Below, piece after piece: positions 19,031 to 53,514 of a DNA stretch of 64,000 bases. The notes under the pieces are model-generated. The model was given only the letters and a program-made list of their open reading frames with translations. It was not told where the DNA came from and did no database searches. The DNA is taken from positions 62,001-126,000 of the forward strand of contig QOQW01000010.1 of assembly GCA_003327425.1 (NCBI GenBank). Direction: 5' to 3'. The position numbers and the translations under genes are program-made. Within the stretch, counting starts at the first letter, position 1. Every line of letters starts with the position of its first letter. This stretch comes from Candidatus Ozemibacter sibiricus. GTDB taxonomy: Bacteria > Muiribacteriota > Ozemobacteria > Ozemobacterales > Ozemobacteraceae.

Positions 19031-19058
19031 GTATCGACCTCTTGGATCGGAAAGTTTC
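19031..19058 (-). promoter_or_regulatory. possible sigma-28-type promoter of flagellin 2
   Basis: Minus strand GAAACTTT (-35-like; consensus TAAAGTTT) and GTCGATAC (-10-like; consensus GCCGATAA), giving GAAA-N16-GTCGATAC. The N16 spacing equals that seen upstream of flgM and flgK in this window. The match is imperfect, so this is tentative. Confidence 0.35.
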
Positions 19059-22012: not shown

Positions 22013-22264
22013 CTACTTTGACTTTTTCTCCAGATTTTTGAGGATTTCCTGGGGCAGGGCCTTGAGGGCGTCCAGGTTCTTGGTCTTGGCCGCGAGACGA
22101 TTCTCGCGCTGAATCTCTTCGTAGACCTCCCAACGATGGACCTTGACCGACTTGGGAGCGTTGATGCCGATCTTGACCTGGTCTTTCCCGATGTCGACCA
22201 GGACGATCTCGATGTCGTCCCCGATGATGATCTTCTCGTTGATCCGGCGTGTCAGTACCAGCAT
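22013..22264 (-). CDS. csrA: carbon storage regulator / translational regulator CsrA
   Basis: Small dimeric RNA-binding protein that binds GGA loops near ribosome sites and blocks translation. In flagellated bacteria with FliW it represses flagellin. 83 aa. It begins [20 protein letters not shown] and continues [23 protein letters not shown], the complete CsrA fold including the RNA-contacting first strand (LTRR) and the later VHR segment. A 30-residue charged C-terminal extension is longer than in enteric CsrA, a feature of FliW-partnered CsrA. Its start codon overlaps the fliW stop (TGATG). It lies directly upstream of the flagellin genes, whose leaders carry GGA hairpins. Confidence 0.96.
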
Positions 22265-22782
22265 CAGCCCCGGCCCTCCTTCTTCGGAGAGTCGGTCGAG
22301 GCAGGCGCGTCCGCCGGAGGTTGAGCGGCAGCCGCCAGGCGGCGGGCCCGGTCTTCCATGGCAGCCAGGATGCTGGTTTTCAGCGAATGAGCGGGATTGT
22401 TCGAGATGATCTGGCGGCCGCGTCGTGTCTTGACATTGATCACCAGGGGCCCCTGGAGATTGGCCGTCATGTCGCGAGGGTTGTCGGGAATGGTGACGAT
22501 GGCGTACAGCACGATATCCTCGACGGCTTGCACGCCGAGGAATTCGACATCGGCATCGCTGATTTCGAGATCGTAGGCGAACATGAACTGGAGCGGTTCG
22601 ATGATGACGAACGCCAGGTCGCCCTTGTCGAGGCATTGCAGCCAGCGGAACGGCCCTCCATCCTGGGTATTGAGAATGACGAACCGGTGAGCGTCTTCGA
22701 ATCCCAGGAGCCCTTCGGAAAACTCGACGATCTCCTCTGGGGCGACCTCGATCTCCCCGAAGCGCGTGGTGGTGATCTTCAT
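22264..22782 (-). CDS. fliW: flagellar assembly factor FliW
   Basis: Binds CsrA as an antagonist and flagellin as a partner, coupling flagellin export to flagellin translation. 172 aa. Typical sequence: [21 protein letters not shown], then [33 protein letters not shown] and [21 protein letters not shown], followed by [16 protein letters not shown]. The last 25 residues are a disordered Ala/Pro/Lys tail beyond the usual end. It follows flgL at a 16-nt gap and overlaps csrA by one base, so the two are translated together. Confidence 0.96.
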
Positions 22783-28329: not shown

Positions 28330-28357
28330 GTATCGGCTCACGATTCCGAAGACCTTA
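28330..28357 (-). promoter_or_regulatory. sigma-28-type promoter of flgK-flgL
   Basis: TAAG-N16-GCCGATAC on the minus strand, close to the flagellar sigma-28 consensus TAAA-N15-GCCGATAA. It lies about 78 nt before the flgK start, in a 248-bp gap after flgN. Confidence 0.65.
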
Positions 28358-39424: not shown

Positions 39425-41671
39425 ATGGGTCTGTACAGGTGGTTGCTGATCGTCGCCGTGATGGTTGGTCCGCTCTGGCCCGCACCGGTCGGGGCGCAAC
39501 CGGCGGCTTCCACGAGCGAGGGGGCTGGCGAGACCCGCATCGACCGCCTGCTCGAGCGGATGACCCTCGACGAGAAGATCGGCCAGATGACCCTGTTCAC
39601 CAGCACCTGGGCGCAGACCGGGCCCACCATGGACCCCGCCTATCTCGATCATGTGCGGGCCGGACGATGCGGAGCCATCTTCAACGCGATGACCGCCAGC
39701 TATACCCGGTGGCTGCAACGGATCGCCGTCGAGGAGACCCGCCTGGGCATTCCGCTGCTGTTCGGCTATGATGTGATCCACGGCCATCGGACCATCTTCC
39801 CCATTCCCCTGGCCGAATCCTGCTCCTGGGACCTGGCCGCCATCGAGCAGTCGGCCCGGATCGCCGCCATCGAGGCGGCGGCCGAAGGCATCCACTGGAC
39901 TTTCGCCCCGATGGTCGATATCGCCCGCGACCCTCGCTGGGGGCGCATCGCCGAAGGCGCCGGCGAAGATGTCTGGCTGGCCTGCCGGATCGCCGAAGCC
40001 CGGGTACGTGGCTTCCAGGGCACCGACCTGCGGCGCCCCGACACCATCGCGGCCTGCGCCAAGCATTTCGCCGCCTACGGGGCGGCCCAGGCCGGCCGCG
40101 ACTACCATACCGCCGATGTGTCCGAGCGCACGCTCGAAGAGGTCTACCTGCCGCCCTTCGAGGCCTGTGTCAAAGCGGGGGTGCGCACCGTCATGACCGC
40201 CTTCAACGAGATCGCCGGGCATCCTTGCACGGCTCATCCGTATCTGTTGAGCGACCTGCTGCGCGGGCGCTGGGGCTTCACCGGCATGGTCGTCTCCGAC
40301 TATACCGCGATCAACGAGCTGGTACCGCATGGCTATGCCGCCGACGAGGCCGAGGCCGGCCGCCGCGCCGTGCTCGCCGGGGTCGACATGGACATGCAGG
40401 GCGCCGTCTTCCTCACCCATCTGCGTCGTCAGGTCGAACGGGGCGAGGTGCCCATGGCCCGCCTCGATGAGGCCGTCCGCCGGATTCTCACGCTGAAGGA
40501 GGAGCTGGGGTTGTTCGATGACCCCTACCGGTACTGCGATGAGGCGAGAGAGAAGCGGGTGGTCTTCTCGGCCCGACACCAGGCGGCAGCGCGCGCCATG
40601 GCCCGACGATCGATGGTGCTGCTCAAGAATGACGGCGGGGTGCTGCCTCTGCGCCCGAACCTGCGCTCGCTGGCTGTCATCGGGCCGCTGGCCGAGGCCA
40701 CCGTCGATCTGCTGGGCAACTGGCATGCGGCCGGCGATGGCAGCAAGGTCGTCTCGATTCTGCAGGCGGTGCGCGAACGGGTCGGCCCGGGCTGTCAGGT
40801 GCGATTCGCCAAAGGATGCGAGGTCGAAGGGCACGACCGTTCCGGGTTCCGCGCCGCTCTCGCCGCCGCCCGCGACGCCGAGGCGGTGCTGCTCGTGCTG
40901 GGCGAGCGCGAGAACATGAGCGGGGAAGCGGCCTCGCGCGTCGATATCGACCTGCCCGGCGTGCAGAACGAGCTGGCCGAGGCCATCGCCCGCCTGGGAC
41001 GGCCGACCGCCGCCGTGCTGTTGAACGGCCGGCCGCTCGCTCTGACCCGGCTGCACGCCGCGGTGCCGGCCATCCTCGAAGCGTGGTTCCCCGGCTCGCT
41101 GGGCGGCCGGGCCGTCGCCGATGTCGTCTTCGGCGACCATGCGCCCTCGGGCAAGCTGACCGTCACCTTCCCCCGACACGTCGGGCAGATTCCCATCTAT
41201 TACAGCATGAAGAACACAGGGCGGCCGCTGGTCGCCGACCAGAAGTACACCAGCCGCTACCTGGACTGCCCCAACACGCCGCTCTACCCCTTCGGCCACG
41301 GGCTGACCTACACCACCTTCGCCTACTCCGACCTGCAGGTCGAACCGCCCGTCGTCGATGGCGGCAAGAGCGTGACCGTCCGGGTCACCGTGCGCAATAC
41401 CGGCTCCCGTGAGGGCGAAGAGGTCGTCCAGTGCTACCTGCGCGACCTCGCCGCCTCGGTCACCCGTCCGGTCAAGGAACTGCGAGGCTTCCGCCGCCTG
41501 CGGCTCGCCCCCGGCGCCAGCGCCACCATCGAATTCACCTTGGGGGCTGGCGATCTCTCCTTCCGCCGCGCCGACGGCACCTGGGGCTGGGAACCCGGCG
41601 AGTTCAGGGTCATGGTCGGCGGCAGTTCCGATCTCACGCTCGAAGGATCTTTTCACATACGCGACAACTGA
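39425..41671 (+). CDS. secreted glycoside hydrolase family 3 beta-glucosidase-like enzyme
   Basis: Hydrolyses terminal beta-linked glucose or xylose residues in the periplasm or outside the cell. 748 aa from the ATG at 39425, which has GGAGGG 6 nt upstream and starts a signal peptide (LLIVAVMVGPLWPAPVGA). GH3 architecture: TIM-barrel domain (about 35-360) with KHFAAYGA and the nucleophile Asp 292 in MVVSDYTAINEL (most relatives have SDW). A second domain carries the acid/base (about 400-620, LLKNDGGVLPLRP and GERENMSGEAASR). A C-terminal fibronectin-type III-like domain follows (about 650-740, VRVTVRNTGSREGEEVVQCYL). It lies directly upstream of the glycosyltransferase gene, 2 nt apart, so the two are co-transcribed. 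Confidence 0.93.
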   Translation: MGLYRWLLIVAVMVGPLWPAPVGAQPAASTSEGAGETRIDRLLERMTLDEKIGQMTLFTSTWAQTGPTMDPAYLDHVRAGRCGAIFNAMTASYTRWLQRIAVEETRLGIPLLFGYDVIHGHRTIFPIPLAESCSWDLAAIEQSARIAAIEAAAEGIHWTFAPMVDIARDPRWGRIAEGAGEDVWLACRIAEARVRGFQGTDLRRPDTIAACAKHFAAYGAAQAGRDYHTADVSERTLEEVYLPPFEACVKAGVRTVMTAFNEIAGHPCTAHPYLLSDLLRGRWGFTGMVVSDYTAINELVPHGYAADEAEAGRRAVLAGVDMDMQGAVFLTHLRRQVERGEVPMARLDEAVRRILTLKEELGLFDDPYRYCDEAREKRVVFSARHQAAARAMARRSMVLLKNDGGVLPLRPNLRSLAVIGPLAEATVDLLGNWHAAGDGSKVVSILQAVRERVGPGCQVRFAKGCEVEGHDRSGFRAALAAARDAEAVLLVLGERENMSGEAASRVDIDLPGVQNELAEAIARLGRPTAAVLLNGRPLALTRLHAAVPAILEAWFPGSLGGRAVADVVFGDHAPSGKLTVTFPRHVGQIPIYYSMKNTGRPLVADQKYTSRYLDCPNTPLYPFGHGLTYTTFAYSDLQVEPPVVDGGKSVTVRVTVRNTGSREGEEVVQCYLRDLAASVTRPVKELRGFRRLRLAPGASATIEFTLGAGDLSFRRADGTWGWEPGEFRVMVGGSSDLTLEGSFHIRDN

Positions 41672-41673
41672 TC

Positions 41674-44451
41674 ATGCCTTTCTCTCCAGACTCCCTTCCA
41701 CCTCTCGATCGCGCCTTGGCCCTGCTGCAGCAGGGCCGTCGCGCCGAAGCGGAACCCTTGTTCCGGCAGGCACTGGCCCTGGAACCAACCAATCTGGCTG
41801 CCGCCTATTCGCTGACGGTGCTTCTGCTGCAGCTCGATCGCCTCGAGGAGGCTCTCGAACAAGCCCAGATCGGAACCAGGAACCATCCCACATGTGCTCC
41901 GCTCTGGCATGTCCTCGGCCAGATCTGGCAACGGCTCGGGCGTCCGACCGATGCCCTGGCGGCCTACGATCAAGCTCTCGTCCATGACCCCACCTGCGTC
42001 GATGTGCTGATCAACAGCAGTGCGTTGCTCCATGAACAACGACAGTACAAAGAAGCTCTGTTGCGATTGCATCGGGCCGTAGAGGCTGATCCCTCACGCG
42101 ATCTCGCCTGGGCCAATTACGGCATTCTGCTGTCAGAATTCAAACAGACCTTGCATGCGATCCATGCCTTCGAGCAATTGGTTCTGCGCAATCCCGACTA
42201 CCCCTTCGGCCTGGGCCTGTTGACCTTCGAGCGCCTCCATCTGTGCGACTGGCGCGATTTTTCCTGGTTGTCGGAACAGATCATCAGCGGCGTCCGAGCC
42301 GGTCGGAAGACCTGCAAAACGTTGGCGTTCATGGCCTTGAGCGACGATGCGGGCGATGTTCGACGCTGCACCGAGATCTATACCGCGCACCAGCACCCGC
42401 ACCGCTTCCCCCCCCTCTGGCGGGGAGAGACCTATTCCCACGCTCGCCTGCGGGTAGCCTACGTTTCTCCCGATTTCCGCGACCACCCCGTGGGACATCT
42501 CCTGGCAGGCGTCCTCGAGGGCCATGATCACACCCGCGTCGAAACCTACGGCATCTCGCTTGGGGAAAACGATGGCAGCCGCCATCATCAACGGATCGTG
42601 GCCGCTTTGGACCATTTTTACGAAGTGCTCGACAAGACCCCAGCCCAGATCGCAGCCTTGATACGCTCTTTGGACATCGACGTGGCCGTCGACCTGGCCG
42701 GCTATACCGCCGGCTCGCGAACCGATATCTTCCTGCACCGCCCAGCTCCTGTCCAGGTGAACTACCTGGGATACGCCGGCACCATGGGGCTGCCGTGCTA
42801 TGATTTCATCCTGGCCGATGCGCAGGTGATCCCCCCCAACGCGCGCCATCACTATTCCGAGCAGGTCTTTGCGTTGCCTCACTGCTATCTTCCCGTGGCC
42901 AGCGGCTGTCCACCGGCTGTGCCGCTCCCGCGGGCCGCCTATGGCTTGCCCGACCAGGCCTTTGTGTTCTGTGCCTTCGGCCACGATTACAAGATCCATC
43001 CCGAGATCTTTCGCATCTGGATGAAGCTGTTGCAAGCCATCCCCGGCAGTGTTCTGTGGCTGATGTCACGGCACGAGACCACCATTGCCAATCTTCGCCA
43101 GGCCGCTCACCACCACCAGATCGATCCCGCTCGGCTGGTCTTCGCCAGCCGGGTGCCCCGCATCGAAGACCATCTCGCGCGCTATCAGGTCGCCGACCTG
43201 TTCCTCGATCCCTGGCCGTATGGCTCCCATACGACCTCGGCCGACGCCCTGATGGTCGGGTTGCCGGTGATCACCTATCAAGGAGGGGCTTTCCATTCGC
43301 GAGTGGCATCGAGCTTGCTGACGACATTGGGCCTTCCCGAACTGATCACCCATTCATTCGAAGAATACTTCACCCTGGCATGCAAACTCGCCAAGGACCG
43401 GAACCGCCTGGCGACCTACCGCCAGCGTCTGCAGGCCATCCATCCGCCCAGCCTCCTGTCAGGAAGACGTTTTGCCGCTTCTCTGGAAGAAGCCTTTGCC
43501 GCCATGCTGGCGGATCGCTTGCCCCGCCACCCTGCTCTGGAACGATTTATGCTGACAGCCAATGCGAGCGGCCCTGCGACATCGTCTTCCCAACCGGCAC
43601 CTGCGTTCATCCTGCCCAGCGAAAACCCCAACCGGCCCGTCGAACATGATTCCCGGGTGTCTCGTTCCTCCCCGCGTCTGGTCATCGTGGTCCCCATTTA
43701 TAAACCCACGCTCAACCTTTTGGAGCAGTTTTCCCTGGACCAGCTGAAGCAAACCGCCCTCCATCGCACGATCACCTTCGTTGGCCCTCGTCATCTCGAT
43801 GTTTCCTACTACCGATTTCGTTATCCCGAATTTGGCATTCGGCTCTACGACGACCGCTATTTTGCATCGATCCAAGGCTACAATCATCTTCTGCTCGACC
43901 CCGATTTTTACGCCGGATTCGACTCGGCCGATTTTGTCCTCATCCATCAAACCGATGCCCTCCTTTTGCACGACGATCTCGATCAATGGATGCACATGGG
44001 ATATGATTACGTCGGCGCGCCATGGCCAGGCGGCCTCGAGATTCTTCTCCAGTTTGGCCGTTACGCCAGGCATGGAGGACTCCAGGTCAAGGCGTATGTG
44101 GGCAACGGCGGCTTCAGCCTGCGTTCCATCCGTGGCACCCGCCATGTCCTGGTCGAACTGGGGGAAATGCGCGACTATTGGATCCGCTCCAACAGCAGTG
44201 AAGATCTTTTCTTCGGCTTTGCCGGCACCATCTCGAACGCCTTCCGCCTCCCCAATCAAATGGTGGCTGCCCGCTTCGCTTTGGAACTGGAACCACAAAA
44301 ATTCTTCGATCTGCATGACGGAACCATCCCCACCGGGTGCCATGCCTGGTGGAAGCATGATCTGGAATTCTGGAAGGGAATCATCATCAAGGTCGCCGAA
44401 AAGCGGGATTCTGCAGGGATTAAGAATCCTGCACCGACGCCAGGGTTCTGA
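41674..44451 (+). CDS. TPR / GT41 (O-GlcNAc-transferase-like) / DUF5672 fusion glycosyltransferase
   Basis: 925 aa with three parts. TPR helices (about 10-185) would recognise protein substrates. A GT41 catalytic region (about 258-615) has SPDFRDHPVGHL (His 271 and His 275), FCAFGHDYKIHPEIF with the conserved Lys 440, and SADALMVGLPVITYQGG with SRVASSLLTTLGLPELI, matching human OGT landmarks. A C-terminal DUF5672 domain (about 668-890) has VIVVPIYKPTLNLLEQF, the IHQTDALLLHDDL acidic motif and GYDYVGAPWPGG, and is itself probably a second glycosyltransferase. A Ser/Pro linker (about 628-665) separates them. The start is 2 nt after the GH3 stop with no ribosome site, so translation is coupled. 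Predicted cytosolic protein or glycan glycosylation. Confidence 0.85.
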   Translation: MPFSPDSLPPLDRALALLQQGRRAEAEPLFRQALALEPTNLAAAYSLTVLLLQLDRLEEALEQAQIGTRNHPTCAPLWHVLGQIWQRLGRPTDALAAYDQALVHDPTCVDVLINSSALLHEQRQYKEALLRLHRAVEADPSRDLAWANYGILLSEFKQTLHAIHAFEQLVLRNPDYPFGLGLLTFERLHLCDWRDFSWLSEQIISGVRAGRKTCKTLAFMALSDDAGDVRRCTEIYTAHQHPHRFPPLWRGETYSHARLRVAYVSPDFRDHPVGHLLAGVLEGHDHTRVETYGISLGENDGSRHHQRIVAALDHFYEVLDKTPAQIAALIRSLDIDVAVDLAGYTAGSRTDIFLHRPAPVQVNYLGYAGTMGLPCYDFILADAQVIPPNARHHYSEQVFALPHCYLPVASGCPPAVPLPRAAYGLPDQAFVFCAFGHDYKIHPEIFRIWMKLLQAIPGSVLWLMSRHETTIANLRQAAHHHQIDPARLVFASRVPRIEDHLARYQVADLFLDPWPYGSHTTSADALMVGLPVITYQGGAFHSRVASSLLTTLGLPELITHSFEEYFTLACKLAKDRNRLATYRQRLQAIHPPSLLSGRRFAASLEEAFAAMLADRLPRHPALERFMLTANASGPATSSSQPAPAFILPSENPNRPVEHDSRVSRSSPRLVIVVPIYKPTLNLLEQFSLDQLKQTALHRTITFVGPRHLDVSYYRFRYPEFGIRLYDDRYFASIQGYNHLLLDPDFYAGFDSADFVLIHQTDALLLHDDLDQWMHMGYDYVGAPWPGGLEILLQFGRYARHGGLQVKAYVGNGGFSLRSIRGTRHVLVELGEMRDYWIRSNSSEDLFFGFAGTISNAFRLPNQMVAARFALELEPQKFFDLHDGTIPTGCHAWWKHDLEFWKGIIIKVAEKRDSAGIKNPAPTPGF

Positions 44452-46908: not shown

Positions 46909-48723
46909 TCAGCCAAGCTCGGCGACCAACCGGGAGAAGTGGGCTTCCAGATGGCGAACAAAACGCGGGGTGTCGAACAGAGCCCCCGATGTGCGCACGT
47001 TTTGGAGATGCGCGCGCATGGACTGGGTTGTCTGAGGGTCATGCGCCAGCGCCACCGCCCGCTCTTCGTAGTCGGCCGTATTCCAGGTGATCAACTCCGG
47101 CAGGCCGGCCGCCCGCAACAAGGCGCCGGCCATCCGCGAGGCGAAGGCACGCCCACTGAGCGTCAACACCGGACAGGCCATCCATAGGGCATCGTTGGCA
47201 GTCGTCCCCGCATTGAAGGGGAACGTGTCGAGGAACAGATCCGCCAGCTGATATCTGGCCAGGTAAGCGGCGGGCGGCACATGGGGGGCGAAGATCAAAC
47301 GATCAGGACAGACGCCGCCAGCGGCGGCGGCCTGGCGAAGATGGATTTCCACCCAGGGGTTGTCGGCATATAACCAGAGCACGCTGCCAGGCACGCGCTG
47401 CAGGATGCGCATCCAGACAGCGAAGAGTTCTGGAGTGATTTTGGTCGGATTGTTGAAGCAGCAGAACACATAACCCTCTGGCGGAAGTCCACATTCTCCG
47501 CGCGTCGGAGCAGGCCCGCCCTGCCGATGACGATCGCTGACCTGGAACACATCGGGCATATACAGAGGTTTCTCGGTAAAATAGGGCGCTAGTTCAGGCG
47601 GCAGCACGAACGCATCGGCGATGACATAGTCGATCCAAGGGAAAGCGGTGGTGGCCGGCAAGCCCAGGTAGGTGATCTGGATCGGCGCCGGACGGTAGGC
47701 CAGCAAGCGCGGTCTGGCTCCCAACGTCTGCCCCTGCAGATCGATCAGAATGTCGATTTCCCGCTCGCGAATCAGGCGAGCGGCCTCTTCGTCGGACAGA
47801 TGCCCGATGGGAACAAAAAAATCCATGGCTTTGACCAAGCGCTGTCGCAAGGGAGAATCGCCCACGGAAGTCCAACAGAAGCCATACACTTCGAAATGGT
47901 CGCGATCATGCAGCTCGAACAATTCGACGGTCAACATCGCCACCGGATGCAGGCAGAAATCCGATGAGCAGTAGCCCACCCGAATCCGGGGGTGATGGTA
48001 CGGAGGAACGGGGGGCAAGGGGGCAGCAAGGGGCGGCACTCGCTGGGCGACATACCGGCGCGCGGCCTCGAGTTGCACCTGCGGATCGTCAGTTAAACTG
48101 AGAAGGGCCAGCACTGAGATGGCTTGCCTGGCGTTGTCGAGATCAAGCCCGGGCAGGGGTGCGACCACCGGCCAGGAACAGGTTTTTTCCCGGAGATAGA
48201 TCCAATGATGGAGCACATCCGCTTGCCTGGGATCCAGCAACAAGCTCCGGGTGAGAGCCTCCACCGCTCGCATCAGGTGTTGTCGGTCTTCCAGCACTCG
48301 CCCCAGATTGTTGAGGGTAGTTTTGTAAATTTCCTGCTGGTCAGTTTCAGGAGGTGGGCCCAGGGCGTCAATCCACTGCCATTCGGCCAAAGCGGCAGGA
48401 ATCTGACCCAGCCGCTCATACGTCAAGCCAAGATTGAAACGAGCCGGAAGGAAATCGGGAGCGATCCGCAAGGCTTGACCATAGGCTTCTCTTGCGCCAG
48501 CCCAATCTCCCTGCGCAAACTGCAGAACGCCGAGATTGTACCAGGCCACATGGGCCATCGCCCCCCCCCCGCGCTGCAGCCAGGTCTGATACAAGAGGCA
48601 AGCCAGCTTGCTCAACCCAGCTTGTTCCAGACTCTGCGCCGCTTGCATCAGAGCTGACAGACTCAATTGCCGATCCCAGGCCTGCTGCAGCCAGACGGGC
48701 AGGTGGGCGACGACGGGTTCCAT
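46909..48723 (-). CDS. TPR / GT41 O-GlcNAc-transferase-like (SPINDLY-type) glycosyltransferase
   Basis: 604 aa. TPR helices cover about 20-175 (WYNLGVLQFAQGDWAGAREAYG, then AAYG-type repeat ARFNLGLTYERLGQIPAAL). The GT41 catalytic region is about 245-600: VGYCSSDFCLHPVAML, IDLQGQTLGARP, FCCFNNPTKITPELFAVW with the conserved Lys, NAGTTANDALWMACPVLTLSG and SRMAGALLRAAGLPELI. All main OGT landmarks are kept, so activity is likely. Family enzymes transfer GlcNAc, fucose or other sugars to Ser/Thr. The start is 68 nt after the octapeptide-repeat gene on the same strand, so the two probably share a transcript. AGGAG abuts the ATG, which is unusually close. The nearby repeat protein is the obvious candidate substrate; flagellin is another. 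Confidence 0.87.
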   Translation of the reverse strand: MEPVVAHLPVWLQQAWDRQLSLSALMQAAQSLEQAGLSKLACLLYQTWLQRGGGAMAHVAWYNLGVLQFAQGDWAGAREAYGQALRIAPDFLPARFNLGLTYERLGQIPAALAEWQWIDALGPPPETDQQEIYKTTLNNLGRVLEDRQHLMRAVEALTRSLLLDPRQADVLHHWIYLREKTCSWPVVAPLPGLDLDNARQAISVLALLSLTDDPQVQLEAARRYVAQRVPPLAAPLPPVPPYHHPRIRVGYCSSDFCLHPVAMLTVELFELHDRDHFEVYGFCWTSVGDSPLRQRLVKAMDFFVPIGHLSDEEAARLIREREIDILIDLQGQTLGARPRLLAYRPAPIQITYLGLPATTAFPWIDYVIADAFVLPPELAPYFTEKPLYMPDVFQVSDRHRQGGPAPTRGECGLPPEGYVFCCFNNPTKITPELFAVWMRILQRVPGSVLWLYADNPWVEIHLRQAAAAGGVCPDRLIFAPHVPPAAYLARYQLADLFLDTFPFNAGTTANDALWMACPVLTLSGRAFASRMAGALLRAAGLPELITWNTADYEERAVALAHDPQTTQSMRAHLQNVRTSGALFDTPRFVRHLEAHFSRLVAELG

Positions 48724-48778
48724 CTCCTCGGTGCTGCGCCCGCCGAACGCGGGGTTGTCGGTTTACAAGGTTGTCACA

Positions 48779-48792
48779 AGAGCGATCGCTCT
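48779..48792. repeat. 14-bp perfect palindrome at the end of the repeat gene
   Basis: AGAGCGATCGCTCT overlaps the stop region of the octapeptide-repeat gene, 56 nt before the GT41 start. It could be a protein site or a small mRNA hairpin. There is no U-tract on the minus strand, so it is not an obvious terminator. Confidence 0.4.
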
Positions 48793-51395
48793 CAGATGGG
48801 AAGAGCGGCGATCTGGGCCGTCGACATGGCCGCGATCTGCGAGGAGGTCAGCGCCTGCACCTGGGCCGTGGTCATATTGCTGATCTGCAAGGTGGTCAAG
48901 GCTTGAATCTGGGATGTGGTCAGATAGGGGATCTGGCTGGTCTTCAGGACAGGGATCTGCGATGTGGTCAGGCCGCTTTGGATCTGCTGAGTGGTGAGAG
49001 CGGCGATCTGGGATGAGGTGAGAGCCTGCAGATCCTGGGATTCGATCGCTTGCACTTGCTGCGTGGTCAACGCCGCAATCTGGGAAGACAGCAACGCACG
49101 GAATTGGTTCGTCGTCAGGGCCACGATTTGCTGAGTGGAGAATCCTGCTTGAATCTGGCTGGGGGTGAACCCTGTCACCTGAGTGGAGCTGAGAGCGGCA
49201 AGATCCTGCGTTTCCAGAGCAGCCACTTGAGCATTGGTCAGAGCCGCCAACTGCGAGGTGGTCAAACCGGACATCTGGGAGGTGGTCAGCGCCACGACGC
49301 CTGCCGATCCAATCGCCTGAATCTGGGAGGTGGTCAAAGATCCAAGCTGGGAAGTGGTAAGCGCACTGATCTGCGAGGTGGTGATCGCCGCCATCTGCGC
49401 CGTCGAAAGGGCGGCGAGATCCGCGCCATCGATACCCCGCAAAGCACTGGTGGAGAGGATTGGCAGCTGGGCAGTCGTGAAGGCTTTGATTTGATCGCTG
49501 CCGAGAGCCTTCAACTGGGCAGAGTTCAGAGTTTGAACTTGAGAGGAGGTCAAGGCAGCGATATTGCTCGTGGACATGCCGACGATCTGGGCGGTGGTCA
49601 GCGATGCCAGGTCGATCGTTTCCATGGCCACCATCTGGGCGGTGGTCAGGGCTCCCAATTGGGCCGAGGTCAGACCCTTGACCTGAGAAGTGGTCAGGGC
49701 CTGGATGTCTTCGGTCCCGAACGCCCGAATCTGGTCGGTGGTCAGCGCCGCCAGTTGGGCGGTCGTCAGCGCCGCGGTCTGCAGCGACGTCAGGGCAGCG
49801 ATCTGCGTTGTATTCAGAGCGGCCAGATCAGAACCGTCGATCCCCTTGATGGCGGCTGTCGATAGGGCGGCCAGTTGCGTCGAAGTGAAGGCTTTGATCT
49901 GATCGCTGCCCAGGGCCTTCAATTGCGCTGAAGACAAGGCTTGCGCCTGAGCCGTGGTCAACGCGGCCACATTGCTCGTGGCCATGCCGACAATCTGGGC
50001 GGTGGTCAGCGATGCCAGGTCGATCGTTTCCATGGCCACCATCTGGGCGGTGGTCAGGGCTCCCAATTGGGCCGAGGTCAGACCCTTGACCTGAGACGTG
50101 GTCAGGGCCTGGATGTCTTCGGTCCCGAACGCCCGAATCTGGTCGGTGGTCAGCGCCGCCAGTTGGGCGGTCGTCAGCGCCGCGGTCTGCAGCGACGTCA
50201 GGGCAGCGATCTGCGCTGTATTCAGAGCGGCCAGATCAGAACCGTCGATGCCCTTGATGGCGGCAGTCGATACCAGGGCCAGTTGCGTCGAGGTGAAGGC
50301 TTTGATCTGATCGCTGCCCAGGGCCTTCAATTGCGAAGAGGACAAGGCCTGTACCTGAGCGGGGGTCAGCACCGCCACGTTGCTCGTGGACATGCCAACG
50401 ATCTGGGAGGTAGTCAGAGCGGCCAGGTCGACCGTTTCCATGGCCACCATCTGGGCGGTGGTCAGGGCTCCCAATTGGGCCGAGGTCAGACCCTTGACCT
50501 GAGACGTGGTCAGGGCCTGGATGTCTTCGGTCCCGAACGCCCGAATCTGGTCGGTGGTCAGCGCCGCCAGTTGGGCGGTCGTCAGCGCGGCCGTCTGCGA
50601 CGACGTCAGAGCGGCAATCTGCGCTGTATTCAGAGCGGCCAGATCAGAACCGTCGATGCCCTTGATGGCCGCCGTCGACAGCGCGGCCAATTGAGCAGTG
50701 TTGAATGCTTTGATCTGATCGCTGCCCAGGGCTTTCAGTTGGGTCGAGGTCAACGCTTGGACGTGCGCGGTATTCAGGACAGCAATCTGGGCAGTGGTCA
50801 GACCGATCACCTGCGAAGAGGACATAGCGGCCAGATCAACCGTTTCCAGGGCAGCTACCTGGCTGGTCGTCAGAGCAGCAATCTGGGCGGAGGTTAAGCC
50901 TTTCACCTGCGAGGTGGTTAAAGCTTGGATATCTTGCGTATCGAATGCTTGGATCTGGGAGGTGGTCAAGGCCGCCAATTGCGAAGAGGTCAAGGCTGCA
51001 CTCTGCGCGCTGGTGAAAGCCGCCACCTGAGATGTCGTCAATCCTGTCAGATCACCAGGATCGATGGCTTGAACCTGACTTGTGGAGAGGGCGGCCAGGT
51101 TCGAAGTCGTGAGAGCCTTCACTTGACTGTCGGTTAAGGCCTTAACCTGAGCCGTGGTCAAGGCCTTGGCCTGATTGGCGGTCAGCAGTTGAATATTGTA
51201 GGTTTGAAGAGCTTGCACCTGACTGGAATTCAGAACCACCAGATCCCGAGTTTCGATGGCGGTGATCTGGGTGCTGGTCAACGCTGCCACCTGCGCGGTT
51301 GTCATCGCTTTGAAATCGGCCGTCCCAAGATTGGCAATCTGAGTGGTGGTTAAAGCCGCAATCTGCGAAGGACTCATTCCAATCACGATAGACAT
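48792..51395 (-). CDS. octapeptide-repeat protein, Thr/Ser-rich, function unknown
   Basis: 867 aa from the ATG at 51395, which has AAGGGGA upstream. A longer frame to 51500 lacks one and has unrelated sequence. Apart from MSIVI and a final ALPI the whole protein is about 107 octads of consensus A-L-T-T-x-Q-(I/V/L)-x, two of which have nine residues. Most octads carry two Thr or Ser and one Gln. A higher-order period of 17 octads (136 residues) is marked by variants such as GIDGSDLA, ALGSDQIK and AFGTEDIQ. I see no Cys or Trp, signal peptide, membrane segment or other domain. Similar ALTTxQ repeats occur in bacterial proteins loosely labelled adhesion or heme-utilisation. A TxxQ helix-cap pattern or a solenoid are both possible. 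A perfect sigma-28 promoter lies upstream and a GT41 gene downstream. Confidence 0.9.
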   Translation of the reverse strand: MSIVIGMSPSQIAALTTTQIANLGTADFKAMTTAQVAALTSTQITAIETRDLVVLNSSQVQALQTYNIQLLTANQAKALTTAQVKALTDSQVKALTTSNLAALSTSQVQAIDPGDLTGLTTSQVAAFTSAQSAALTSSQLAALTTSQIQAFDTQDIQALTTSQVKGLTSAQIAALTTSQVAALETVDLAAMSSSQVIGLTTAQIAVLNTAHVQALTSTQLKALGSDQIKAFNTAQLAALSTAAIKGIDGSDLAALNTAQIAALTSSQTAALTTAQLAALTTDQIRAFGTEDIQALTTSQVKGLTSAQLGALTTAQMVAMETVDLAALTTSQIVGMSTSNVAVLTPAQVQALSSSQLKALGSDQIKAFTSTQLALVSTAAIKGIDGSDLAALNTAQIAALTSLQTAALTTAQLAALTTDQIRAFGTEDIQALTTSQVKGLTSAQLGALTTAQMVAMETIDLASLTTAQIVGMATSNVAALTTAQAQALSSAQLKALGSDQIKAFTSTQLAALSTAAIKGIDGSDLAALNTTQIAALTSLQTAALTTAQLAALTTDQIRAFGTEDIQALTTSQVKGLTSAQLGALTTAQMVAMETIDLASLTTAQIVGMSTSNIAALTSSQVQTLNSAQLKALGSDQIKAFTTAQLPILSTSALRGIDGADLAALSTAQMAAITTSQISALTTSQLGSLTTSQIQAIGSAGVVALTTSQMSGLTTSQLAALTNAQVAALETQDLAALSSTQVTGFTPSQIQAGFSTQQIVALTTNQFRALLSSQIAALTTQQVQAIESQDLQALTSSQIAALTTQQIQSGLTTSQIPVLKTSQIPYLTTSQIQALTTLQISNMTTAQVQALTSSQIAAMSTAQIAALPI
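49580..50803 (-). repeat. three near-identical 408-bp tandem repeats within the octapeptide-repeat gene
   Basis: Units at about 49580-49987, 49988-50395 and 50396-50803 are nearly identical for long stretches. For example the segment beginning at 49705 recurs at 50113 and 50521, and in diverged form at 50929. 408 bp is exactly 17 octads, so gain or loss keeps the frame. Flanking units (about 49172-49579 and 50804-51211) have the same period but have diverged. This suggests recent expansion by unequal recombination. Confidence 0.9.
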
Positions 51396-51820
51396 ATCAA
51401 TCCCCTTTCCGCGAGCCGAACAACCCGCAGGTGAAATGTTCTCGGGCGAAGGCAGCCACGACGGTGGTTCCCCTTTGTCCATCGACAAAGAAAGCCGCAT
51501 CGACCAGAAGACTCATCCTTAAGTATGCCCATGATCCTCTGGCAAAGACCCTTCCATGGGGTCCATCAGGCCCCTTGATTATCTCTGGGGGAAAAGAAGA
51601 GCGATGTCGGCGCGCGTCCCGATCGTCAAGGGTGGACCGATCAAGAGCCCAGGTCAGATGTTGCCATCCGAGGGGCCTGCTCGCCCATTCGGGGTTTACA
51701 TCCCGAGAGAGGGATTCTCCCTTGGCGGCCGTTGGCATTCGACAATCCATCCTTGGTGACGATAACCAAGCGGGACGTTCAAGCTTGGCTTTGGCGGGCC
51801 TTCCTTTGCCCTCGTTAACT

Positions 51821-51847
51821 TTATCGGCAATTTTTCAGAAAACTTTA
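51821..51847 (-). promoter_or_regulatory. perfect flagellar sigma-28 promoter of the octapeptide-repeat gene
   Basis: On the minus strand TAAAGTTT (51847-51840), an 11-bp spacer and GCCGATAA (51828-51821) match the enteric FliA consensus TAAAGTTT-N11-GCCGATAA at all 16 positions. An A8 tract 14 bp upstream of the -35 could act as an UP element. The next gene in this direction is the octapeptide-repeat protein, about 420 nt downstream. Confidence 0.88.
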
Positions 51848-51905
51848 GAGGGAAATCGCAATTTTTTTTGCCACCTCCCAGACCTGCGGAAAATGCGGTT
51901 CATAG

Positions 51906-51939
51906 CGCCTCGCCCCTCCCTGGCAGGAGGGGCGAGGCG
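51906..51939 (-). terminator. hairpin terminator of the phospholipase D-family gene
   Basis: A perfect 14-bp GC-rich stem (51906-51919 with 51926-51939) with a 6-nt loop, 37 nt after the stop codon. On the minus strand a short TTTT follows about 14 nt later, so it is a strong hairpin with a weak U-tract. Confidence 0.55.
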
Positions 51940-51975
51940 GAAAAACCTTGTCGGGAAGCCGGTTTTCGCGGCCGA

Positions 51976-53514
51976 TCAGATCAGGGGGCGCAACCAGCCA
52001 AGCTTCAAGAGCATCTGGAGGCGGCTCATCACCTTGGGGTCGGAGTGCGTTTCGGGCCCGAAGACGGTCTTGATGGTGCCATCCGGTTCGACCTTCACCT
52101 TGTATTCGTGGGAGTTGGCGATGTCCTGCTCGATCTTCTTGGCCACCTGGGTGGCGAAGGCGGGCGACTTGATGACCGCCACCTGCTCGGAATTGACCTG
52201 TTCGCTGATGTAGTCCATGTTGTAGGTGCCGATGACGGCAACTTTGCGATCGAAGACGAACACCTTGGAGTGCAGCTTGTTCGTCAGCTTGTAGCCGAAG
52301 ATGCGCAGACCCGGGTTGTCGGCCAGGATCTTCTTCCAGTCACCGATGAACATGGCCTGGGTCAGCAGACTGTCGGTGCTCATCGGACTGTTGGTCTGGA
52401 TCACGATCTTGACCCCACGTCGGTTGGCCCGCTTGATGGCGGCTTCCATCTCCGGAGTGAGCACGACATAGGGGTTCTGGATCAGGATCTCGCTCCTGGC
52501 CGTGTTGAAGAAGGAGATGAGGTTCCAGGTGATGTCGTTGCGGAAGCCCTTCTTGGAATGCTTGTCGAGCAGCCGAGCGGCCATCGGGCGCTGTCCCTCG
52601 AACAGCCGGAAGGCCGCGTAGCCGGGCAGATGCTTGTACTGAGACAATTCTTTGTTGTATTTCTCGACGATCGCCACCAGGTCTTTGGAAAACTTCGCGG
52701 GATCGACCCGATACAGCCCCTGGCCGAGCAGGTAGCGTCGCATGCAATGGTAGGCGAGATCGAGTTCGCGATGCATGTCCTTCCAGTTGCCGAACAGGTC
52801 GCCACTGAACTTGAAGTTGCTGTGCTGGGCGAATTCTTCGTCGAAGGCCTGTTTCGTCTGCTTCGCCACGACCTTGCTCTTGATCAGCACGTCGGTATCG
52901 CGATAGACGGTCGGCAGGTCGCGCGGATCAACGAAATAGTTCTTGGAAATGTTGCGCCCGCCGGTAATGACATACTCATCGTCGACCAGGAGGATCTTGT
53001 CGTGATTGCTGGCCATGATGTTGCGGATGTCGGCGAACGCCTGCAGCAGATTGGCGCTGACCGGGTTGAAGGTCTTGATCGTCACGTTGGGGAACTTGCT
53101 CAGTTCCTGCATCACATCCTGGCCGAAGAAGGTGCGCGTCAGGGTCTTGGTCCCGCGGGCATCGAGCATGATGCGGATCTTGACCCCTTCCCGAGCCTTC
53201 TTGAGCAGCATGCCCAGCATGCTGTGCCCGAAGATGTCCTGCTCGACGATGAAATAGGTGGTGTCGATGGACGATCGGGCGTTGTCCATGATGGCCCAGC
53301 GCGCATACCAGGCCGGCACATTGTCGGGCAGGAACCGCACCAGAGCTTGCGAATCATAGGTGTTGCACTGGATGCGATCGAAGAACTCCTCGACCCCGAT
53401 GTTCGGCCCGGCCTCGGGAACGGCCGGAGACGCCGCCGGAGCAGGAGCGGCAGACACCGCCCCGATCAGAGCCAGAACCATCAAGGACAGGAACAGAGCC
53501 AGACGGCGGTTCAT
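51976..53514 (-). CDS. exported phospholipase D-family protein (cardiolipin synthase-like)
   Basis: 512 aa with a signal peptide (LFLSLMVLALIGAVSAAPA) and an Ala/Pro linker. Two HKD motifs mark the PLD fold: NHDKILLVDDEYVITGGRN (about 170-188) and LHSKVFVFDRKVAVIGTYNMD (about 416-436). Flanking text such as YFIVEQDIFGHSML and AREGVKIRIMLDARGTKT resembles ClsC/YmdC-type cardiolipin synthases. Export to the periplasm is unusual for cardiolipin synthesis, so phospholipid remodelling or a nuclease-like role are alternatives. GGGAGG precedes the ATG. It stands alone with its own promoter and terminator. Confidence 0.88.
   Translation of the reverse strand: MNRRLALFLSLMVLALIGAVSAAPAPAASPAVPEAGPNIGVEEFFDRIQCNTYDSQALVRFLPDNVPAWYARWAIMDNARSSIDTTYFIVEQDIFGHSMLGMLLKKAREGVKIRIMLDARGTKTLTRTFFGQDVMQELSKFPNVTIKTFNPVSANLLQAFADIRNIMASNHDKILLVDDEYVITGGRNISKNYFVDPRDLPTVYRDTDVLIKSKVVAKQTKQAFDEEFAQHSNFKFSGDLFGNWKDMHRELDLAYHCMRRYLLGQGLYRVDPAKFSKDLVAIVEKYNKELSQYKHLPGYAAFRLFEGQRPMAARLLDKHSKKGFRNDITWNLISFFNTARSEILIQNPYVVLTPEMEAAIKRANRRGVKIVIQTNSPMSTDSLLTQAMFIGDWKKILADNPGLRIFGYKLTNKLHSKVFVFDRKVAVIGTYNMDYISEQVNSEQVAVIKSPAFATQVAKKIEQDIANSHEYKVKVEPDGTIKTVFGPETHSDPKVMSRLQMLLKLGWLRPLI

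Follow-up and report, generated by a model that had tools for sequence, protein, structure and literature searches.

An exact sigma-28 promoter match precedes a putative two-gene unit of an ALTTAQ repeat protein and a GT41 glycosyltransferase in Candidatus Ozemibacter sibiricus

Introduction

In Haemophilus, the HMW1A/HMW1C system combines a cytoplasmic GT41-family enzyme with the large surface protein that it modifies, both being encoded together. Glycosylation by HMW1C is N-linked, and the substrate leaves the cell by two-partner secretion. GT41 enzymes of eukaryotes also modify intracellular proteins, and few bacterial OGTs are known whose natural substrate has been defined. The flagellin O-glycosyltransferase FlmG of Caulobacter is a TPR-GT enzyme that modifies flagellins before their export (PMC7591256), and the Campylobacter proteins FspA, CiaI, and FlaC are sigma-28-linked proteins that are secreted through the flagellum (PMC5223770).

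Here we describe a locus of the Ozemobacteraceae that shares features with each of these systems. Its putative product resembles FspA, CiaI, and FlaC as a non-structural or accessory protein that would be made with the late flagellar genes and perhaps exported by the flagellar apparatus, but the Campylobacter proteins are not octapeptide-repeat solenoids and have no known co-encoded dedicated OGT. The glycosyltransferase of the locus and FlmG are alike as cytoplasmic TPR and GT-B enzymes that act, here by prediction, on Ser/Thr of flagellar substrates, but the former tracks an ALTTAQ repeat gene and not flagellin. To HMW1C-type enzymes it has a weak similarity (E about 1e-6). It shares the TPR and GT41 architecture and the catalytic motifs with the GT41/O-GlcNAc transferases XcOGT (2jlb), human OGT, and SPINDLY, and differs from them in being paired with one repeat-protein gene.

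Genomic Context

The Ozemobacteraceae are a lineage of the Riflebacteria. The analysed stretch of 64,000 nucleotides (the window; G000:C52:62001-126000) is part of a draft genome of 5.68 Mb with 63% GC. In the sister species of the same genus (G002), the corresponding stretch is located on contig CALLCO010000078.1. The window contains the following features:

51906..51939, minus strand: strong GC-rich hairpin without a T run, separating the upstream PLDc gene from the promoter (sequence and folding)
51862..51869, minus strand: A8 tract, UP-element-like, upstream of the -35 element (from the sequence; 7/8 in the sister species)
51821..51847, minus strand: putative sigma-28 (FliA) promoter TAAAGTTT-N11-GCCGATAA, an exact consensus match unique in the genome
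51396..51815, minus strand: long 5' leader of about 420 nt
51796..51811, minus strand: hairpin GGGC-AAAGGAAG-GCCC (GGGC-AAAGGA-NN-GCCC) by the predicted transcript start, 14/16 positions kept in the sister species
48792..51395, minus strand: ALTTAQ octapeptide-repeat protein, 867 aa (PF20080)
46909..48723, minus strand: TPR and GT41 (OGT-type) glycosyltransferase, 604 aa (PF13844, E 4.6e-76)
41431..44451, plus strand: second GT41 gene (TPR-GT41-DUF5672), pointing at the repeat gene

The Sigma-28 Box

On the minus strand, positions 51847..51821 read TAAAGTTT-TCTGAAAAATT-GCCGATAA and agree with the E. coli-type FliA consensus at 16/16 positions, with a spacer of 11 nt; both consensus motifs of E. 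coli FliA are printed in PMC4183435 and PMC2859248. This full match had been reported in a preliminary description of the window, and it is the only one in the window (none in 100 shuffles) as well as across the whole 5.68 Mb genome. From its base composition, 5.68 Mb of this genome should contain 0.0003 exact matches, 0.017 sites that deviate at just one position, and 0.47 that deviate at just two; one site of each kind was found. When up to three mismatches were allowed, the genome contained no excess of matches (8 places versus 14 for a reversed-pattern control), which indicates that only the top sites are informative. Sites with two or three mismatches were not clearly enriched across the family relative to the reversed control either, and therefore only sites with no or one mismatch (up to two within the genus) were used. 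The box also surpasses all sites of the flagellar cluster, as claimed before: the best of these, TAAGGTCT-N12-GCCGATAC at 28357 before flgK and GAAACTTT-N12-GTCGATAC at 19058 before a flagellin gene, are both imperfect.

The box of the sister species, TAAAGTTT-N11-GCCGATAC, retains 15/16 positions, compared with only 5/11 in the spacer and an overall identity of 54% in the intergenic region. Since 9 of the 553 alignment positions also reach 15/16 by the same count, conservation of the box taken alone is supportive, not decisive. The A8 tract that had been noted just upstream of the box was located at 51869..51862. Farther upstream, the GC-rich hairpin at 51906..51939, roughly matched in position by a hairpin of different sequence in the sister species, may act as insulator or terminator.

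Between the predicted transcription start, at about 51815, and the ATG of the repeat gene (51395), there are about 420 nt. The leader is poorly conserved in the sister species except at its ends, and a pattern search of 48600-52100 revealed no sigma-70-like promoter. An open frame within the leader (51397-51750) was considered as a gene and discarded: it had no match in Pfam or NCBIfam, and it was only weakly similar to the sister frame (35% over 71 residues), the DNA here being about half identical, so that it looks non-coding. In the hairpin at 51796..51811, the stem and the GGA loop are kept in the sister species, with a fold z of only -0.95; its resemblance to a CsrA site is a lead only. 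Elsewhere in the window (22013-22636, minus strand), the gene directly upstream of a flagellin gene encodes a protein of 207 aa in which residues 125-176 form an internal CsrA domain.

The Sigma-28 Regulon

The gene flgM, which encodes the anti-sigma-28 factor, is among the classic targets of FliA. The genome encodes FliA (G000:C26; TIGR02479, 286 bits, above the curated cut-off), and 74 nt downstream of its sole site with one mismatch begins a gene for a protein that barely passes the FlgM cut-off (PF04316). In another genome, G001, a box with two mismatches precedes a clear relative of this FlgM protein. The sister species has a nearly identical two-mismatch site, which, judged by this match, probably also precedes a flgM relative. 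The three genomes of the genus together contain six places with at most two mismatches (two for the reversed pattern), and five of the six are the sites of ALTTAQ genes and of flgM or flgM-like genes. The flgK site in G017 reads TAATTTTA-N12-GCCGATAA, and the start regions following the flgK sites of G017 and the window are nearly identical. The flgK promoter of the lineage has a similar -10 element (GCCGATAC/A, then AGATWATAGGGGAAAA), in genus g4 as well as in the window.

The upstream regions of the family's flagellin genes mostly lacked a strong box (the reading frame was wrong for a few loci) and hence did not help to train a sigma-28 matrix. Before ALTTAQ genes outside genus g1, the box is weak in genus g4, where it has several mismatches and a spacer of N10, and absent in G014, suggesting that sigma-28 control may be genus-specific. 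About 100 nt upstream of the ALTTAQ start, three loci of genus g4 have a TAAA/CAAA...CCGA block in common.

Further sites were recorded. In the window's genome, a sigma-28-like site with two mismatches (G000:C39:120534; L058) is followed after 71 nt by an open frame of 476 aa or more, and an exact box in G007 lies 75 nt before an unannotated open frame of 368 aa (G007:C11:279616; L105). Reading the genes downstream of the exact boxes in G006 and G019 yielded nothing clear.

The earlier assignment of the repeat gene to the late flagellar regulon is thus backed by the presence of FliA, the site before flgM, the conservation in the sister species, and the proximity of ALTTAQ genes to flagellin genes. 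These observations argue strongly for reading the box as a late flagellar promoter, and transcription of the repeat gene would very probably depend on FliA.

A Putative Two-Gene Transcription Unit

The repeat gene had been regarded as the only gene downstream of the box, but it is followed on the same strand by the GT41 gene (46909-48723) after a gap of 68 nt; the sister species has the same gene order with a gap of 91 nt. A pattern search detected no T-tailed terminator between the two genes on this strand, and no Rfam elements were matched within the window. A transcription unit consisting of the ALTTAQ repeat gene and the GT41 gene behind one sigma-28 promoter is well supported by this arrangement.

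The ALTTAQ Repeat Protein

The preliminary description had correctly given the protein a length of 867 aa and an octapeptide repeat, and 62 of the 83 spacings between units are exactly 8. Its view of the protein as unknown does not hold, since the family is already catalogued in Pfam as PF20080 (ALTTAQ repeat), which matched 27 stretches of the protein (E 4.5e-207; 670 bits versus a gathering threshold of 26.4). A functional paper on PF20080 was not found in the searched literature, nor was a description of a link between PF20080 and sigma-28 or GT41. In total, 84 octapeptide-like units with the consensus L-T-T-A/S-Q-I/V-A/K/Q-A were identified; the repeat is rich in Thr, Ser, and Gln, with Thr and Ser accounting for 26% of the residues of the protein. 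An AF2 model of the first 331 aa, computed from an alignment of twelve natural relatives, has a pLDDT of 94.8 and confidently predicts a solenoid built of short helices, one for each octapeptide. A Foldseek search with this model gave remote matches only (best match mesothelin, TM 0.27). By sequence, the nearest solved chain is an octapeptide-repeat chain of 120 residues deposited as HeliScrew4 (PDB 9zem; phmmer E 1e-14).

The protein had further been described as surface- or filament-like. This is not evident from its sequence, which contains neither a signal peptide or hydrophobic signal-like stretch nor a secretion domain, the C-terminus consisting of repeats, and no recognised flagellar export signal was found in it.

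A tandem unit of 408 bp (136 residues; 3.2 copies, 90% identical) is located inside the repeat gene at 49477-50770. The gene of the sister species is about half as long, and ALTTAQ proteins of different species have lengths of 459, 867, about 2025, and up to about 3770 aa. The tandem unit and this range of lengths suggest a fast turnover of repeats.

GT41 Enzymes and Their Co-Occurrence with ALTTAQ Genes

The 604-aa enzyme aligns with XcOGT (2jlb) over most of its length (E 2e-89) and has kept the active-site His and UDP-site Lys motifs (SSDFCLHPVA and CCFNNPTKI). Genes of the second GT41 type are found near ALTTAQ genes in other genera, too. In a GT41 tree the second-type enzymes formed one clade, and the type I enzymes linked to ALTTAQ were placed close together across the two phyla.

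ALTTAQ genes and full-length GT41 genes occur in the identical 8 of 22 family genomes (G000, G002, G007, G009, G012, G014, G017, and G021). The probability of an identical distribution by chance is 1/C(22,8) = 3e-6 if related genomes are counted as independent. In three genera, one genome lacks both genes (G001, G016, and G005) and its genus-mates carry both. A partial GT41 gene at a contig end was found in G038, which is outside the 22 genomes scored for both genes. As flagellins are present in 24/24 family genomes and full-length GT41, among the 22 scored, only together with ALTTAQ, the enzyme tracks the repeat protein and not flagellin. Judging from this gene pairing, the GT41 enzyme quite probably O-glycosylates the repeat protein.

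The pair also occurs outside the family. The gammaproteobacterial MAG BB34 contains an ALTTAQ gene followed by a GT41 gene (57-60% identical; a binning error is possible), and in the proteobacterial genome G412 the same order is seen with type I secretion system (T1SS) genes just beyond. Inhella carries T1SS genes and a GT41 gene no farther than about 10 kb from its ALTTAQ gene. In the phylum of Inhella, as sampled, few ALTTAQ proteins passed E 1e-9 (8/399). The other six among these are of a looser type, and no GT41 gene was present in the stretches read; the pairing thus holds for the strict type. Several genomes of this phylum (loci L145, L147, L150, and L156) encode a looser form of the repeat (TQLDGLTSLQLTAL) in proteins reaching about 5700 aa, with GT41 absent from the stretches read.

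Flagellar Neighborhood and Export

In three genera, ALTTAQ genes belong to flagellin clusters or lie close to them. In G007, two flagellin genes, flaG, the ALTTAQ gene, and the GT41 gene follow each other on one strand. The nearest flagellin-type or fliD gene is about 22-30 kb away from the repeat gene in the window and in G017, the flagellin genes of the window being located 22-35 kb from the operon. In G012, the distance to a flagellin-type or fliD gene is comparable for one repeat gene, which is truncated at a contig end, and no flagellin was found on the contig that carries the repeat genes of G014. T1SS genes are close to the pair in two of the three proteobacterial loci (G412 and Inhella), which indicates that the ALTTAQ family does not need a flagellum. 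None of the ALTTAQ-bearing Ozemobacteraceae possesses a T1SS HlyD above the curated cut-off; such proteins were detected only in G011 and G018, which both lack ALTTAQ. The hallmarks of a type I secreted adhesin are accordingly missing for the window protein, which ends in repeats and whose genome has no curated HlyD. From the sigma-28 timing and the arrangement in G007, we infer flagellar export as the simplest explanation; that the repeat protein leaves the cell through the flagellar apparatus is a serious possibility that falls a little short of being probable.

Discussion

The exact box and its conservation, the FliA and FlgM findings, the anatomy of the operon, and the co-occurrence of ALTTAQ and GT41, all read from genome sequences, are consistent with the following model. 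A FliA (sigma-28) promoter would drive the repeat gene and the GT41 gene as an operon, which would come on late, after completion of the hook and export of FlgM, alongside the other late flagellar genes. The first gene would give rise to a long Thr/Ser/Gln-rich solenoid in which each octapeptide forms one short helix, and the second to a cytoplasmic TPR-OGT of the GT41 family that O-glycosylates Ser/Thr residues of this product. The glycosylated solenoid would then leave the cell, most likely by the flagellar export apparatus, and may serve outside as an adhesin or filament-associated accessory. Taken as a whole, this reading is about evenly poised between being right and wrong. The leader of about 420 nt is unusual and counts against it.

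That the box is a chance sequence without promoter activity is highly improbable. The local stretch is AT-richer than its 63% GC genome, which makes such a match somewhat likelier, but only about 0.0003 exact matches are expected per genome, the box is kept in the sister species, and the second-best site precedes the gene for FlgM. More weight attaches to the idea that sigma-28 merely sets the timing and that a glycosylated repeat adhesin of the cell surface, unrelated to the flagellar filament, exits elsewhere, by a diverged type I or another system. This alternative, unlikely in our view but the leading one, agrees with the ABC, HlyD, and OEP genes found no more than about 10 kb from ALTTAQ and GT41 in G412 and Inhella, the non-repeat domain at the end of the G412 protein, and the HlyD-like genes below the cut-off in all Ozemobacteraceae. 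It is weakened by the absence of a curated T1SS HlyD from the ALTTAQ-bearing members of the family, by the window protein, which ends in repeats and has no C-terminal secretion domain, and by the G007 pair inside a flagellin cluster.

The repeat protein might also stay in the cytoplasm as a scaffold or ruler, for instance at the flagellar pole or in chemoreceptor arrays, and be regulated by O-glycosylation. The missing signal peptide and the intracellular targets of eukaryotic GT41 enzymes would fit such a role, which we nevertheless consider improbable because the number of repeats varies widely between species, as in surface proteins, and the proteobacterial relatives are encoded near secretion genes. 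Even less credence is given to the enzyme being an FlmG-like flagellin glycosyltransferase and the repeat protein a bystander in its operon. Caulobacter FlmG offers a precedent (PMC7591256), and flagellin genes lie at 22-35 kb in the window; however, all 24 genomes have flagellins, and full-length GT41 genes are found only with ALTTAQ, plus in one genome unscored for ALTTAQ. A role of the enzyme as flagellin modifier was rejected on this phylogenetic profile.

Under the preferred reading of a FliA-controlled operon whose glycosylated product is exported by the flagellum, the protein might represent a new class of flagellum-exported proteins, and one glyco-adhesin module of repeat protein and OGT might have been plugged into two export systems, flagellar here and type I elsewhere. 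We put this forward as a speculative and rather unlikely extension. The finding has grown from a single gene into an operon, which pairs a catalogued repeat protein with a dedicated enzyme of the OGT type. With ALTTAQ and this enzyme encoded side by side, a concrete enzyme-substrate hypothesis can be formulated, for which the sigma-28 box supplies the timing. An acceptor with such exceptionally regular Thr/Ser residues would make a convenient OGT model, and the repeat protein itself may be a surface glycoprotein tied to the flagella of an uncultured lineage.
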